Source: Mycoemilia scoparia (taxonomy: Eukaryota > Kickxellomycota > Kickxellomycetes > Kickxellales > Kickxellaceae). Taken from it: a stretch of 64,000 nt of DNA. Positions 345 through 24,950 of this stretch are shown here, piece after piece. The position numbers were made by a program, and so were the translations under genes. The stretch's first letter is position 1. Each line of letters begins with the position of its first letter. Under the pieces are notes generated by a model, which saw only the letters and a list, made by a program, of their open reading frames with translations, ran no database searches and had not been told where the DNA came from. The DNA lies in NCBI GenBank assembly GCA_027575805.1, contig JANBPU010000009.1:1-64000 (forward strand), read 5' to 3'.

Positions 345-484
345 TGTTATGACAAAACAGGAATAACAATGATATAGGTTATTAAGGGTTGAAAAGCTGC
401 TGTTTTTTTAAAAGGAATAAATATTATAGTAACTACTAAATAATATTTATTACTAAAATTATGGGTATAATTTTCAGCATGACA
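345..484 (-). mobile_element. Solo LTR of the Ty3/gypsy element
   Basis: This 140-bp stretch starts TGTTA and ends TGACA and aligns end to end with the two 142-bp LTRs of the complete element at 18469-23654, with scattered substitutions. It is flanked by the 5-bp direct repeat CAAGG at 340-344 and 485-489, the target duplication. No internal element sequence remains, so this is a solo LTR left by LTR-LTR recombination. Its divergence makes it older than the full copy. It is shown on the minus strand because the complete copy's genes read that way. Confidence 0.9.
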
Positions 485-18035: not shown

Positions 18036-18468
18036 GCTACTATGTTCTTTTCCAAGTCTGGATTCTTCTATTGTAATATTGCACCTAAAGGCCAGACAAT
18101 AAATTCAGACTAATACATTGAAAAATGTCTAAGGCCCATGCTAAAAAAATGGCATACTAGCCATAAAACTAAAAAAAGGAGATCAACCCAGATACGTCCA
18201 GCTCTACCATGACAATGCAAGACTATACATCTCAAAGGCTACTCAGGAATATAAGAAAAAAATAGAATTTAATAGATTCAAGCACTTCCATACTCACTAG
18301 ATCTTGCTCCCTTTTACTTCTGGCTCTTTCCAATGGTAAAGAAACAACTAGCAAAGGAGGAATTTACCAATATTGCTCTAGTGAAAGCAAGGTTTTGATC
18401 ATTGTTTCATGATTCATGTCTTCTAAAGGATATATAATATAATTTATATATAATATACCCATAATTAC

Positions 18469-18610
18469 TGTTATACCGAAACAGGGATAATAATGAATAT
18501 AAATTATTAAGGGTTCAAAAAGCTACTGTTTATTTAAAAAGGGATAAATATTATGGTAACTACTAAGTAATATTTATCATAAAATTATGGGTATAATTTT
18601 TAGCGTGACA
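18469..18610 (-). repeat. 3' LTR of the Ty3/gypsy element
   Basis: 142 bp, TGTTATACC...GCGTGACA on the plus strand. It differs from the other LTR at two bases (GAATAT against GAAAAT, and GCTACT against GCTGCT). It holds the last codons and the TAA of pol at 18600-18602. Confidence 0.95.
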
Positions 18611-21600
18611 CTCTCCCCAACTTAGGATTCTTGTCATGCTGTACTTGGTTAAACTTATCTATGAGTTTTTGTGCATTTTCCATATTTCCTTCTGGTTCCC
18701 ACGTATTTTCGGTCTCATCATACCCTTTCCATTTTACGAGGTATTCACGTGGCTTCCCTTTCTTCTTCCTTGTATTCATGATCTTTTCGACAGTCCATTC
18801 TACGTTCCCTTCTACTAGTTCTGGGGGTGGGTGGAATTCCTCTTGAGGAATTTGTTCTGAACGATGATATCTCTTTAGGTATTCGACATTTATTACTGGG
18901 TTGATTCGCAGCATTGGAGGTAGCTTGATCTTATATGCATTAGGTCCTTTCCTTTCTAGTACTTCATATGGGCCATGCCATTTATCCATTAACGCTTGTT
19001 TGGTATTTGTCTTCACATGTTTAGGTAAGTTCAGTTCTGTCGCTATGACTACTTCATCCCCTGGTTCCAGTACTAGTGGTACTTTATGCTTATCATGATT
19101 TCGCCTGCTATTCTCTTGAGCTGTTTCGATGTTTTCCTTTGCTGCCTCTAGCATATTACCCAGATTTCGTAAGTATTGATTGGCAGTTGGGTTATTTACA
19201 TCTATGCTATTAATGGGGAATTTAGGCTTGAATCTATAATTTAACTCATAAGGGGTAAACTTCGTCGAGGAGTTCTTCTGGCTATTGAATGCTATTTCGA
19301 CCTTTGTTAGGTCCTTATCCCATTTGTCTGTTCCTTTACAGCTTGTTCTGAGCATGGTTTCTAGTTGTTTATTTGCATTCTTGCTCTGGCCATCTGTCTG
19401 TGGGTGGTTCGTTGTGCTCATCTTTAATGTAATCCCTAGGCCTTCTGCTATTGACTTCCAGAATTTTGATGTAAACTTGGGGTCACGATCAGAGACTATT
19501 GAATCTGGTAATCCATGTAGCTTTACAACATTATCCAGTATCAACTCGGTCGTCTCTGCTATTGTGGCTGTATCACGGGTAGGGATGAAATGTGCCATTT
19601 TCGAGAGTCGATCTACTACTGTTAAGATGGCATTGTGGCCTTTCTTTGTCTTTGGTAGTCCTGTCACGAAGTCCATTGCTATTGATTCCCATGGTCTCTC
19701 TGGTATTTCTAGGGGCTGTAGTTTGCCCTTCTTCCTAGTATCACCATGTTTTACTTTTTGGCATATATCGCAACATTTTACCCATTCCAATACATCTGTG
19801 TACATTCCCGGCCAATACCATGAGTTCTTTAGTTTGTCGTAAGTCTGTCCTTCTCCCCCATGAGCAGACACACCTGATGTGTGTGCTTCATACAATAGCG
19901 ACTTATGGAGTTTGGCAGAGCCTACACATCGGCGTCCTTTCTTGTACAGAATTCCATTATAGATGGAGTATTTCTTCAAGACAGGTTCAGCGGATTTAGC
20001 AGCTGGGTCTGTTCCACTGAGCATTCCAAAAATACGTTTGAGGGTGACATCCCCTTCATAGCTGTCTGTCACTGGACCAAGGTCAACTTCCCATGTTGAT
20101 ATAGTAGTTGTATTAATAGATATATTTGTTGAGCCAAACCCATTGCTCCCACGGGCTGTTGCTTGTAATTCATTTACCAATACAGGGACTGGTTTATCGA
20201 TCTTGTTCACTACCAGTTGGGCAATACGATCACCTGCTTCAATCTTATAAGGTAAGTTTCCATTGTTACAAAGGAGTACGGCAATTTCTCCAGTATATCC
20301 ATGGTCGACGACTCCCCCAATGGGGAAGATACCTTTTGCTGCTAGGCTACTACGGCCTTCGATCTTTAGGTAAGTACCTTGTGGGGCTTGTGCTGCTATG
20401 CCTAAAGCTATCTTTGTAGTTGATTTGGGTTGGAGGATTACTGTATTCGGGGAAGTAACATCATACCCTGCGTCATCATCATGTGCTGATGAAGGTAAGG
20501 TGGCTGTAGGGTGAAGTAAAACTATATTCAATCTCATCTCATCCATGGGGCTCATGTTAGTGGTGTATAGGGAGAGATTGTCAAATTTACTTCCCAAGTC
20601 CTCGATTTCTGTCATTGGTCCATATATTGGTAGTTCTTCTGGGGTTTCCTTGGGTTGTTCTTCTATGTGTGTTTTACCAAGATAAGGGAGACTACTATTG
20701 ATATCTGTATTTATCTCCCATGGCGGTCGTGATAAAATATCCGCAGCAATATTATCGGTGCCCTTTTTATACTTTACGGTAGTGTCATATCTGCTTAGAA
20801 GTTCAATCCACCTAGCCTTTCTACCAGATATGTCTGGCTGTGAGAATATGTGTTCCAATGCCTTATGGTCTGTCATGATATCAACATCATGGTTTATCCA
20901 GTGTTCCCACTCTTTTAGGCATGATACTAAGGCTAGCAGCTCTTGTTCATAAACACTATATCGTTGTTCTGCAGGGGAAAACTTTTTCGAGTAATACGCA
21001 AGGGGGTGCCAATCATTGTCATTTGCTAGTTGGTATAGCACTCCTCCCATTGCTATGCCAGATGCATCTGTTTCGAGTCTTTTCGGGGCCCTGGGATCAA
21101 AGGTTACAAGTACCGGTGTTGAACAGAGGGCTTTCTTCAGTAACTCAAATGAGTTTTGAGCTTCCTCTGACCATATGAACTTGGTGTCTTTCTTTAGCAA
21201 TTCTGTCAGAGGTATCAAAATAGTTGCAAAGTCTTTAACGAACCGTCGGTAGTACCCTGTTAATCCTAGGAATGCACGGACATCCGTCACTGTCTTAGAA
21301 ACTCTCCATTCAGTTATGGCAGCAATCTTGGATGGGTCAGTACTAATACCTTTGTCTGACAAGATGTGACCAAGGAACTCAATGCGGGAGCGGAATAACC
21401 TGCATTTTTCTGGTTTCGCGTACAGTGCATTCTTCTCCAGCCGTTTCAAGACTTCTTCCAATAAGCGGGTATGTTCTTCTTTATCTTTTGAATATATCAG
21501 GATATCATCTAGGTATGCTACTACACCTTTGTCCAATAGATCTGATAGGGCATCCTGAATTGTTCTTTGGAAGGTTGCTGGTGCATTACATAATCCAAAG

Positions 21601-22805
21601 GGGACTACTGTATATTCGAATGAACCATATCTTGTCCTGAATGCTGTCTTTGGGATATCTTCTTCAGCCACACGTACTTGGTGGTATGCTTGTCGTAGGT
21701 CTATTATTGAGAATACCTTTGCGCCATGTGTGATTGATATAAGGTCATCTATCAGTGGTAGTGGGTATTGGTCACGAACTGTTTTTGCATTCAGTGCTCG
21801 ATAATCTACACAAAGTCTCATTGTGCCATCTTTCTTCCCTACAAATAGTACTGGTGCTCCCCATGGTGACTTTGACTTCCGAATATAACCAGCATCTAGT
21901 AATGACTTTAGTTGTTTTTCTAGTTCTTGCAGTTTCTCGGGGTTCAAACGGTATGGTGTTTTGGCTATTGGTCTAGTTCCTGGGAGGAGCTCAATCCTGT
22001 GGTCAACTTCTCTATGCAGTGGTAGCCCTGGGGGTGGTTCTCCAAAAACTACCTTATACTTGTCAAGTAACCTTATAGTTGTTTCAGATATGTCCTTTGT
22101 ATCTATGGTTTCTTCTATCAATGCTCCAATTGTATTTATACTCAAGTATGGGGTTCTCATATCTATGACACCAATTATATCGGCCTCATCATTCTCTACT
22201 AGGTCGATGAATTCTTCTGAATCGATAAGGTTTAGGTCTGAGATAAGCGTGTCTTCTATCTTCGTTATACTGTTATTCTCACATTGTAATTTGAGTCTGC
22301 GGGAGCCCATCGTTAGTTCAACTTGTGATTCTTGGGTATGGAGTATCACATTGTGTCGTCGCATCCAGGGGAGGCCAAGAATTGCATTTGCGGCAATCGG
22401 TGCTACATAGAAAACAATCTTCATTCGATATCCTTGTGCTAGTGTTGTCACTATCGTTGTCTTGTAAGTTGTCCGTCCTAACTCTCTACCTTTCACATCT
22501 ACTATCTTTCGTTTGCATGATAGGGGCTCTAGTGGTAGGTTTAGTTGTTTTGCTGTTCTTTCATTAATAAAGTTCCCGTCTGCCCCAGTATCAATCATTG
22601 TCTTGAGTATAACATTGTTCACTTCGAGGTTGAGCCACATCTTCCCAATCAGGCAATAAGTGTTATTTGAGTTTATTGAATCGATCTTTAAACAGCTAAC
22701 ACTTTTAGGAGAGTAGGTATGCCTGTCTTCTACTCTCCTTAGTCTTTTCCCGAAGACTTGCCACATTCCCTCATATGATGGTCTGGCTTTCCGCAAAGTA
22801 AGCAT
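18600..22805 (-). CDS. Pol polyprotein: PR-RT-RNaseH-dUTPase-IN-chromodomain
   Basis: A 1,401-codon frame, probably made as Gag-Pol by -1 frameshifting at 22745-22751 rather than from its own ATG. Domains in order: aspartic protease (MIDTGADGNFI), reverse transcriptase (ALNAKTVRDQYPLP and the catalytic YLDDILIYS), RNase H (ETDASGIAMGGVLYQL and MTDHKALEHIF), dUTPase (about 20120-20545), integrase with an HHCC zinc finger (CDICQ) and catalytic MDFVTGLP, SDRDPKFTS and a Glu in NKQLE, and a C-terminal chromodomain (EYLVKWKGYDETENTWEP). The dUTPase keeps all five motifs: AGYDVTS, EGRSSLAAKGIF, GVVDHGYTGEI with its Asp, GDRIAQLVV and RGSNGFGST. Chromodomains steer chromoviruses to marked chromatin. 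dUTPases in LTR elements are rare; a basidiomycete Metaviridae example is known to me. Confidence 0.95.
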   Translation of the reverse strand: MLTLRKARPSYEGMWQVFGKRLRRVEDRHTYSPKSVSCLKIDSINSNNTYCLIGKMWLNLEVNNVILKTMIDTGADGNFINERTAKQLNLPLEPLSCKRKIVDVKGRELGRTTYKTTIVTTLAQGYRMKIVFYVAPIAANAILGLPWMRRHNVILHTQESQVELTMGSRRLKLQCENNSITKIEDTLISDLNLIDSEEFIDLVENDEADIIGVIDMRTPYLSINTIGALIEETIDTKDISETTIRLLDKYKVVFGEPPPGLPLHREVDHRIELLPGTRPIAKTPYRLNPEKLQELEKQLKSLLDAGYIRKSKSPWGAPVLFVGKKDGTMRLCVDYRALNAKTVRDQYPLPLIDDLISITHGAKVFSIIDLRQAYHQVRVAEEDIPKTAFRTRYGSFEYTVVPFGLCNAPATFQRTIQDALSDLLDKGVVAYLDDILIYSKDKEEHTRLLEEVLKRLEKNALYAKPEKCRLFRSRIEFLGHILSDKGISTDPSKIAAITEWRVSKTVTDVRAFLGLTGYYRRFVKDFATILIPLTELLKKDTKFIWSEEAQNSFELLKKALCSTPVLVTFDPRAPKRLETDASGIAMGGVLYQLANDNDWHPLAYYSKKFSPAEQRYSVYEQELLALVSCLKEWEHWINHDVDIMTDHKALEHIFSQPDISGRKARWIELLSRYDTTVKYKKGTDNIAADILSRPPWEINTDINSSLPYLGKTHIEEQPKETPEELPIYGPMTEIEDLGSKFDNLSLYTTNMSPMDEMRLNIVLLHPTATLPSSAHDDDAGYDVTSPNTVILQPKSTTKIALGIAAQAPQGTYLKIEGRSSLAAKGIFPIGGVVDHGYTGEIAVLLCNNGNLPYKIEAGDRIAQLVVNKIDKPVPVLVNELQATARGSNGFGSTNISINTTTISTWEVDLGPVTDSYEGDVTLKRIFGMLSGTDPAAKSAEPVLKKYSIYNGILYKKGRRCVGSAKLHKSLLYEAHTSGVSAHGGEGQTYDKLKNSWYWPGMYTDVLEWVKCCDICQKVKHGDTRKKGKLQPLEIPERPWESIAMDFVTGLPKTKKGHNAILTVVDRLSKMAHFIPTRDTATIAETTELILDNVVKLHGLPDSIVSDRDPKFTSKFWKSIAEGLGITLKMSTTNHPQTDGQSKNANKQLETMLRTSCKGTDKWDKDLTKVEIAFNSQKNSSTKFTPYELNYRFKPKFPINSIDVNNPTANQYLRNLGNMLEAAKENIETAQENSRRNHDKHKVPLVLEPGDEVVIATELNLPKHVKTNTKQALMDKWHGPYEVLERKGPNAYKIKLPPMLRINPVINVEYLKRYHRSEQIPQEEFHPPPELVEGNVEWTVEKIMNTRKKKGKPREYLVKWKGYDETENTWEPEGNMENAQKLIDKFNQVQHDKNPKLGRVSR
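18611..18618 (-). other. Polypurine tract
   Basis: Minus strand GGGGAGAG lies directly against the 3' LTR, the expected place for plus-strand DNA priming. It is part of the pol coding frame. Confidence 0.75.
22707..22751 (-). promoter_or_regulatory. Programmed -1 frameshift signal between gag and pol
   Basis: On the minus strand the heptamer GGGAAAA (22751 to 22745) is phased G GGA AAA in the gag frame, the canonical X XXY YYZ pattern. After a 5-nt spacer (GACTA) comes a perfect 10-bp stem, AGGAGAGTAG (22739-22730) pairing with CTACTCTCCT (22716-22707), around a 13-nt loop. Slippage before the gag stop gives SSGK then RLRRVED of pol. Heptamer, spacer and stem all match functional retroviral-type signals. 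Confidence 0.88.
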
Positions 22806-23482
22806 GTATTTGCTCTAAAACGTTCATCAAATTCAGTCTTTGACACTCCTCTTCTTTCTAGCTTTGTTTTCAGCTGTAAGAGGTAATCGTTGGGTCTACG
22901 TTTACTTTTAGCTCCTTTCTGCTCGTTCTCGAATCCGAATCCAAGAGCATCTACTTCCATGGGTAGCCCTCCCCTGCTATTGGAGTGGGCATTTATACGA
23001 GCAGCTACTACATCCATACATCTGGTGATTTCCACTGCAGGCCCAAGGCTCAGGACAGGTGGCATACGGGTAGCGTACAGACCCACAAGAACAGCATTAT
23101 CTTTGATGCCAATACTTTTGGCCAACTGCATAAACTCCGCATTAAACTCATCGATGCTGACATGGGTACTAAGTTCAATTAGCTTGATCGTTCGTTGTAC
23201 TTTCGTGCTAATACTGCCACGGTAGTTCAGAAGGTAGTCCTTGAATCCCTGCCAAGTACATGGGCGGTTAGTCTCGTCCACAGATCGCCACGAGGACCAA
23301 GTACTTAGGATTGAAACATCAACATAATTCAGTGCTGCCTTGGGTTCAACACCATTGATCGACGCCAAGGTTTCGGCACCCTTGACCCACTCAAAGGCTG
23401 CTTGGTCAGAGGCCTTTGCCGTGAGTTGAGTGACCTTAAAGAGGGGGCCATTACCGCTAATAATGTTATCGCTGGTCGACAT
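22739..23482 (-). CDS. Gag protein of the Ty3/gypsy element
   Basis: 247 residues from an ATG at 23482. The middle resembles Ty3-type capsid (WQGFKDYLLNYRGS, IKLIELSTHVSIDEFNAEFM). The C-terminus carries one CCHC zinc knuckle, CLLCGKPDHHMREC, which fits C-X2-C-X4-H-X4-C. The frame ends at TAA 22739-22741, immediately after the slippery heptamer, and overlaps the pol frame, which is in -1 relative to it. Confidence 0.92.
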   Translation of the reverse strand: MSTSDNIISGNGPLFKVTQLTAKASDQAAFEWVKGAETLASINGVEPKAALNYVDVSILSTWSSWRSVDETNRPCTWQGFKDYLLNYRGSISTKVQRTIKLIELSTHVSIDEFNAEFMQLAKSIGIKDNAVLVGLYATRMPPVLSLGPAVEITRCMDVVAARINAHSNSRGGLPMEVDALGFGFENEQKGAKSKRRPNDYLLQLKTKLERRGVSKTEFDERFRANTCLLCGKPDHHMRECGKSSGKD

Positions 23483-23490
23483 TACAAGAT

Positions 23491-23510
23491 GAGGATCGAA
23501 ATTGCTACCA
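23491..23510 (-). other. Primer-binding region, initiator tRNA-Met-like
   Basis: Two bases inside the 5' LTR, the minus strand reads TGGTAGC (plus strand GCTACCA, 23504-23510), complementary to the 3' end of initiator tRNA-Met. Directly beside it the plus strand reads GGATCGAAA (23493-23501), like the T-arm of eukaryotic initiator tRNA with its hallmark AUCG. A two-part primer match is inferred; only the 7-nt 3'-end match is firm. Confidence 0.6.
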
Positions 23511-23512
23511 AT

Positions 23513-23654
23513 TGTTATACCGAAACAGGGATAATAATGAAAATAAATTATTAAGGGTTCAAAAAGCTGCTGTTTATTTAAAAAGGGATAAATATTATGG
23601 TAACTACTAAGTAATATTTATCATAAAATTATGGGTATAATTTTTAGCGTGACA
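23513..23654 (-). repeat. 5' LTR of the Ty3/gypsy element
   Basis: 142 bp, TGTTATACC...GCGTGACA on the plus strand, followed by the ATTAC duplication at 23655-23659. Confidence 0.95.
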
Positions 23655-23745
23655 ATTACCCTATTTTCTAATTTTGGTAACAATGGCTTACTTTTATTAT
23701 TTTAATATAAGGATCCTTAAAGGCTTGCCTATTATATTTATTATT

Positions 23746-24428
23746 TTACATTTTACATATGAAATGCTTAGTCATCTTCATATTATTAGGATCTATATAT
23801 ACAACAGCAAAAGAAAGTACAGATATATTTTTCTTGCTATAAAAGTCATGGTTAGTTTCATTATATACAATTGGTATTTTAATATTTTGTTTATAATCTG
23901 CAATTATGATACATTTATTTCTACTTAGTTGTCTTTCACAATTTAGATAGGCCTTCTTCTGGTTTGCTACACCCTCTCTGTGGATCCTGCAGGCTTCTAA
24001 TTTTCCCTGGTACTCTACCTGTCTTAGATCAGCTAATGGAACATCTATTAGAAGATCTACCAATTGGTCTTCTCTGGTACAAATAGTACACAAGTCAGTC
24101 CTCTTGGTCCCCTTTTTAAAATTCTTAGGACAATACCTATAAAAAGTACTTTGTGACATCTTTACACCAGGGTTATTCTCAATAAAACTAGCATATAACA
24201 TTTTTTTAGTTTTATTAAGATAATAAATCATTTCACCATTAGATGTTGTATTACTACTTAGCTCTGAATTATCAACAAGATGCTCTTTAAGCTTTTCTTT
24301 GATACCAATAGATATTGATCTTCTGGATTCTGGAACATGCCTAGTATAACCATCAAATCTAATATTATTGTTACCTACTTTATTCTGGGCATTGATATAT
24401 TGATCATGATATATGACTCTGACTTTTT
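23746..24428 (-). pseudogene. Unknown transposon-like protein, copy 1
   Basis: A minus-strand frame open from about 24428 to 23746; the first ATG is at 24231, but clear similarity to the neighbouring copy starts upstream (GYTRHVPESRRSIS). It contains STFYRYCPKNFKKGTKRTDL followed by Cys pairs (CTIC), a His/Cys-containing helical stretch, and CIIIADYKQNIKIP...HDFYSKKNISVLSFAVVYID, which could be part of a DDE-type nuclease core. I do not recognise the family with certainty. The Ty3 element inserted just beyond its 3' end. The lack of an upstream ATG and the neighbouring broken copy suggest a dead transposon gene. Confidence 0.5.
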
Positions 24429-24444
24429 ATATAATGTTTTTACT

Positions 24445-24950
24445 TTAGATACAAACTGAGTACATATTGGTCTTCTTGACTAGAGGCTTGAAGTTCTTGG
24501 GGCAGTATTTGTAAAAGGTACTAAGGGCAACCTTATACTCTGGATGTTCTGCCACCATCTTCTCATATATTGCCTTCTTGGTGCACTGGAGATGGTATAT
24601 TGGGGAACCATCACTAGTTTGTAAGCAGCTGGACTGGGAGCTAGCCTTGAGGTACTGGACAATAAGTGCCTTCTTGGCTTCTGACACACTCTGTCTAGAT
24701 GGAGGAGTGGTCCTTTTATAAGGGGCTAGAGAGAAATTACTCTCTTTAGCCTTTTCCTTTGCCAAACTTAACTACTTCTTTGAAAACTGGAATTGGTACT
24801 CTTGTTTTAAGATAGACATACCAACAAACAGGGCAGCAATGGCAAGGAGAGCAGACTTTTGACTAGATGAGGCACTTTGGTGGGCTAGAGAGAGGTTTTT
24901 AAGCATACCTTTAAGTACCCTTTGCAGCTCTGACACAAATAATGGTCTGA
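24445..24950 (-). pseudogene. Unknown transposon-like protein, copy 2, with in-frame stop
   Basis: Paralogue of copy 1: TTPPSRQSVSEAKKALIVQY and STFYKYCPKNFKPLVKKT align with its N-terminal half, then the frame stops at 24445 with MYSVCI. Upstream the frame continues past an in-frame TAG at 24772-24774 into LQRVLKGMLKNLSLAHQSAS and ALLAIAALFVGMSIL. It lacks the C-terminal half seen in copy 1. The two lie head to tail, 17 bp apart, which suggests a rearranged or twice-inserted transposon. Confidence 0.5.

Follow-up and report, generated by a model that had tools for sequence, protein, structure and literature searches.

The window, by which we mean the whole stretch of 64,000 nucleotides of contig JANBPU010000009.1 of Mycoemilia scoparia that was analysed, carries a Ty3/gypsy chromovirus on its minus strand. 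Its features are listed below in the direction of transcription.

18469..23654, minus strand: Ty3/gypsy chromovirus, 5186 bp including both LTRs (LTR pair, target site duplication, open reading frames)
23655..23659, minus strand: target site duplication GTAAT (5 bp), 5' side (sequence)
23513..23654, minus strand: 5' LTR, 142 bp (140 of 142 positions identical to the 3' LTR)
23492..23510, minus strand: two-part primer binding site (by comparison with a tRNA gene that this genome carries on contig C271)
22739..23482, minus strand: gag, 247 aa from the ATG at 23482, stop codon at 22741-22739 (matches NCBI H4219_001033)
22763..22804, minus strand: CCHC zinc knuckle of gag, C-X2-C-X4-H-X4-C (translation)
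18600..22814, minus strand: pol, in the -1 frame relative to gag, with its stop inside the 3' LTR (Pfam)
18611..18618, minus strand: polypurine tract GGGGAGAG (sequence ahead of the 3' LTR)
18469..18610, minus strand: 3' LTR, 142 bp (LTR comparison)
18464..18468, minus strand: target site duplication GTAAT, 3' side (sequence)

The LTRs differ at two positions and are thus 98.6% identical. In pol, Pfam finds a protease, RT, RNase H, dUTPase, integrase, an SH3-like domain and a chromodomain. The order PR-RT-RNase H-IN with a C-terminal chromodomain, together with the LTRs, target site duplication, primer binding site and polypurine tract, identifies the element as a chromovirus. Gag is identical over 247 residues to part of the NCBI Mycoemilia scoparia protein H4219_001033; a protein search with gag returned one protein, this same gag, and a Pfam scan of the 292-aa stop-to-stop gag frame gave no match. 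Since both frames are open, this copy of the element may be active. Window positions 345-484 hold a further LTR-like copy, possibly a solo LTR, which has 86% identity with the LTR of the element.

The primer binding site is built of two segments. The first 10 nt are complementary to the 3' end of tRNA-Met(CAT) plus CCA. The 10 nt that follow, one base of which belongs to the first segment as well, are complementary to the T arm of the same tRNA, which we take to be the initiator from features of its sequence. The arrangement is compact: the acceptor-end complement abuts the T-arm complement, and the 6 nt covering the T stem's 3' strand are left out. Yeast Ty3 likewise possesses a two-part tRNA-iMet primer site, but its segments lie about 4,800 nt apart instead of being adjacent, and the two-part sites of Ty1 and Ty3, as described in PMC5371799, are both arranged differently from that of the window element.

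The dUTPase occupies pol residues 771-896, between RNase H and integrase, and was also found in related copies on contigs C232, C398 and C145 and in a related protein, P0013. The dUTPase-carrying chromoviruses of Postia placenta are fungal Gypsy elements that similarly have this domain within pol. There, however, it sits at either the N or the C terminus, or else between protease and RT (PMC2864245).

The gag-pol junction

Read directly on the minus strand, gag ends with the codons TCG GGA AAA GAC TAA, and the junction is laid out as follows.

22745..22751, minus strand (read 22751-22745): slippery heptamer G_GGA_AAA, in gag phase (direct reading)
22740..22744, minus strand: spacer GACTA, 5 nt (direct reading)
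22707..22739, minus strand: putative stimulatory hairpin, perfect 10-bp stem with a 13-nt loop (folding, neighbour controls)
22739-22730 and 22716-22707, minus strand: hairpin arms AGGAGAGTAG and CTACTCTCCT; loop at 22729-22717

A single codon (GAC) separates the heptamer from the gag stop. The open -1 frame of pol extends from 22814 and shares 73 nt with gag. The coordinates and layout given in the first-pass annotation (heptamer, 5-nt spacer, stem, loop and -1 pol) were thus reproduced. Classical retroviral -1 sites combine an X_XXY_YYZ heptamer with a 3' structure. The junction in the window resembles them in its heptamer, short spacer and strong hairpin but belongs to a kickxellomycete host; an in-phase X_XXY_YYZ, a short spacer followed by a stable 3' structure and an overlapping -1 frame, which are among the attributes of a -1 programmed ribosomal frameshift site, are present.

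At this site gag meets pol in a dUTPase-bearing Ty3/gypsy chromovirus, which very probably uses -1 frameshifting here. From the layout, phase and fold, and from their recurrence described below, we infer the following course of tandem slippage. The majority of ribosomes would complete gag, and a minority would be paused by the hairpin. On these, tRNA-Gly and tRNA-Lys on GGA AAA would slip back by one base and re-pair on GGG AAA, and the slipped ribosomes would go on to read pol in the -1 frame, yielding a Gag-Pol fusion at a minor ratio to Gag.

It appears extremely improbable to us that the frame break stems from decay or an assembly error, with heptamer and hairpin lying here by chance or the hairpin serving some other purpose, for instance RNA packaging. 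The first-pass annotation had called so nearly exact an inverted repeat within coding sequence unlikely by chance, and the controls point to more than coincidence. With a strict heptamer defined as XXXYYYZ, where Y is A or T and the last base is not G, G_GGA_AAA is the only one in phase in the 245 codons of gag, and pol has none in 1402 codons; under a looser rule, pol has four. The 44-nt hairpin folds at -15.5 kcal/mol against a mean of -7.04 (sd 2.31) for shuffled sequences (z -3.66), and none of the 200 shuffles was as good. A 79-nt segment was less extreme, with z at -2.59 and 4 of 200 shuffles as good. Over all positions of the window a 10-bp stem at a spacer of 4-9 occurs at 58 of 127,860, and among the positions neighbouring the junction the stem length alone is equalled at 4 of 877. 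On both strands together, 6 of 382 heptamers (196 plus, 186 minus) are followed by such a stem. In favor of a coincidence are the five other sites, all on the plus strand and in LTR or LTR-like sequence: two in the LTRs of the element and the remaining three, which overlap, in the LTR-like copy at 345-484. Against it stand the near-identity of the LTRs, the two open frames, and the return of the -1 relation and a hairpin in four families that differ in sequence.

Junctions of related copies

A search of the genome with 505 aa of pol gave at least 30 matches, and the junctions of seven copies, falling into four families, were compared. Copies C173 and C5 were assigned to families A and D outside the tree, by 82-84% DNA identity and by 98% identity over 601 bases, respectively. 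For each junction we list the heptamer and how often the 45-nt fold and the stem length are at least equalled at neighbouring positions.

Window (family A): G_GGA_AAA; fold equalled at 4/877, stem length at 4/877
C173 (family A): T_GGA_AAA; fold equalled at 0/959, stem length at 6/959
C232 (family B): G_GAT_TTT; fold equalled at 2/959, stem length at 27/959
C398 (family B): A_GAT_TTT; fold equalled at 0/959, stem length at 22/959
C35 (family C): C_CCA_AAA; fold equalled at 0/959, stem length at 30/959
C343 (family D): C_CCA_AAA; fold equalled at 30/846, stem length at 12/846
C5 (family D): C_CCA_AAA; fold equalled at 0/959, stem length at 2/959

Pol is in the -1 frame of gag in all six junctions with readable frames (window, C232, C398, C35, C343 and C5). 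For the family A junction just one further copy was found in the genome, C173, which is collinear with the window and free of gaps across the junction. A stem of 8-11 bp at a spacer of 4-7 nt is found in 7/7 junctions, one pair in C343 being G-U. The local 45-nt fold is equalled by 0-4 of 877-959 neighbouring positions in six of the seven and by 30 of 846 in C343. Judged on the length of the stem alone, the junctions stand out less, with 2 to 30 neighbouring positions doing as well. The 3' structure is thus retained throughout, while the heptamer and the stem sequence differ between families; the strict XXXYYYZ is present in four junctions (window, C35, C343, C5) and absent from C173, C232 and C398. 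The first-pass annotation had named, as evidence against its reading, copies that keep the overlap and lack the heptamer or the stem. Part of this was indeed encountered, in T_GGA_AAA of C173, which is followed by a stem, and in A_GAT_TTT of C398; the loss of the stem was not, in any of the seven. Taken together, the phase, geometry and folding of the window site and the six other junctions in the same genome support the -1 frameshift that had been proposed.

All six relatives look decayed. The pol matches contain two TGA stops in C35, one TGA each in C343 and C5 and five stops in C173, which with its stops and an insertion is plainly dead. C232 has a long open pol frame of 1011 aa in which Pfam finds no integrase, and C398 has open frames for gag (314 aa) and pol (1149 aa), with a Pfam match to the zinc-binding part of the integrase only and none to its core. 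One apparently intact element is therefore compared with decayed relatives, which blurs the comparison of heptamers.

The insertion in C173 (C173:20164-20307) measures about 144 bp and lies in the zinc-knuckle region; about 8 bp of the query matched on both sides of it, as if duplicated. Near the start of pol, the active site of the protease has INNRS in C232 where C398 has IDNGS, and because of this motif C232 is probably without an active protease.

Two further relatives are outside this comparison: the C145 junction is cut by the end of its contig, and that of P0013 cannot be read since P0013 is a protein sequence. P0013 is identical to the window pol at 748 of 1400 aligned positions and has its dUTPase in the same place. 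A distant copy, C457 (24% identity), was considered and kept out of the count of seven. Its pol is also in the -1 frame of the preceding one, but the heptamer is G_TCT_TTT and no zinc knuckle was detected.

An intron spliced out across the junction would join gag to pol with no need for a slip. Such a model exists for a third family B copy, the NCBI protein P0122 (77% to the gag of C232), in which gag and protease form one protein without the junction residues, as would result from a predicted intron. An exact copy of P0122 was not found in the genome, where the best matches reach 73-78%. A donor-like GTAAGT overlaps the gag stop of C35, and GTRNGW hexamers lie ahead of the stop in C232, C398, C35, C343 and C5, whereas in the window our examination of donors found no GTRNGW in the 200 nt ahead of the gag stop. 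The donor-like positions in the other copies are scattered (-183, -141, -53 and -1), and an intron would not account for a heptamer plus a hairpin. For Tcn1, an intron was wrongly annotated for the same reason, according to PMC10085805. We thus regard splicing as very improbable, and the intron of P0122 as probably invented by the gene model.

Alternatively, pol might have a start of its own, through reinitiation or internal initiation close to where gag stops. Pol-frame ATGs are on offer in the window at -64, -25 and +101 from the gag stop, upstream of the protease motif at +146, and families B (+47) and D (+89) have one as well. Their position, however, is not conserved, and separate initiation would be hard to achieve in family C, where no pol-frame ATG occurs before +179, past the protease active site at +146. 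In the window and in family B the ATG positions would permit it. We give this route hardly any credence and retain the -1 frameshift as the explanation for the junction.

Stem pairing and a possible loop partner

Conserved pairing with compensatory changes in related copies had been proposed as a check on the signal, and such changes were found between families C and D. C35, C343 and C5 align without gaps and share an 8-bp stem (columns 31-38 with 56-63), picked from folds of the same three sequences, in which all eight pairs hold in all three sequences (24/24 cells). Five of the eight pairs changed on both sides, one changed on one side and two are invariant. In slid controls, with the partner moved by 1-3 columns, 33-46% of cells were paired. 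The covariation score was reached by 2 of 500 shuffles and the number of further pair types by 53 of 500. Since two of the sequences are near-identical, the set effectively compares two families once. In family A, C173 and the window agree at all 20 stem bases, whereas 28 of the 180 positions of the region differ (hypergeometric 0.028), which is weak support.

The hairpin loop may have a partner of its own further downstream:

22650..22655, minus strand: speculative pseudoknot partner TGCCTG, complementary to CAGGCA of the loop (22725-22720); one of two 6-bp candidates

TGCCTG lies 51 nt after the stem. In C173, one CAGGCA/TGCCTG pair is changed on both sides with pairing kept. This double change consists of a C-to-T and a G-to-A substitution, the most frequent types in that copy (16 of 28 differences), and family D has a comparable 6-bp pairing in C343 that is broken in C5; for these reasons the pseudoknot is kept as a speculation. 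That the stimulator is a pseudoknot of CAGGCA with TGCCTG, and that within the clade heptamer, stem and any loop partner are exchanged with the geometry kept, the signals turning over as modules, seems to us rather unlikely.

Comparison with known elements

The first-pass annotation had implied that a retroviral-type -1 site would be surprising in a fungal Ty3 element. This surprise finds no support in the literature: Tf1/sushi elements outside the fission yeasts predominantly use -1 frameshifting according to PMC10085805, and the signal in the window is therefore not rare. The same source corrects grasshopper from +1 to -1, and the legend of its Fig. 4 lists, among others, marY1, MAGGY, REAL, grasshopper, MGLR-3, Tcn1, Cgret and skippy. 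In the review PMC5009743, both +1 and -1 are used in fungi with a less skewed balance than in animals, where pol lay in the -1 frame in 28 of 51 elements; GGGAAAA had no match in the 300,000 of its 475,107 characters that were searched. The mechanism is already common in fungal elements of this type, and what is new is this example in Mycoemilia scoparia.

By description, the window element resembles Tf1/sushi (PMC10085805) as a Ty3/gypsy element with a chromodomain and probable -1 frameshifting, and differs in its dUTPase between RNase H and integrase. With yeast Ty3 it shares the placement of gag and pol in different frames, but Ty3 shifts in the +1 direction (PMC5009743).

The RT tree, for which 25 matches, the window and P0013 were entered, has 25 rows, the C5 piece and C457 having been dropped as too short. 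It took in neither C173 nor C415, was rooted at the midpoint and carries a long-branch warning. Families A-D are held in a clade of 7 rows with a support of 89/88, below star level. A separate RT group of 14 rows from the same genome (support 98/97) provided a contrast: in all three members checked by Pfam (C118, C30 and C48b), protease and RT share one frame. In C48b this frame also contains the gag domain PF03732 (7.1e-05, just under the curated cut-off); Pfam detected no gag domain in C118 or C30, and C118 has about 450 residues ahead of its protease. Judged from these three frames, single-frame and -1 elements appear to coexist in the same genome.

The viral contigs and prokaryote assemblies searched yielded no junction DNA of a close relative in another species. 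Four contigs in prokaryote assemblies (L066-L069) encode more distant pols and were not used as close relatives. By eye and from the length of the open frames, L066 seems to have gag and pol in a single frame, as L067 and L069 possibly do too; the sequence of L068 begins within pol.

With the present data, a probable -1 recoding signal is documented for Kickxellomycota retrotransposons. Four related yet different signals in one genome constitute a natural series for studying which components of such a signal are under constraint. As P0122 suggests, gene prediction in such genomes may introduce spurious introns at gag-pol junctions.

Another observation concerned the sequence next to the element. 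On the minus strand of the window at 23749-24700, an open frame (23749-24426) without a Pfam match lies beside a stretch that, by eye, encodes similar words (CPKNF); the two are perhaps related transposon fragments.
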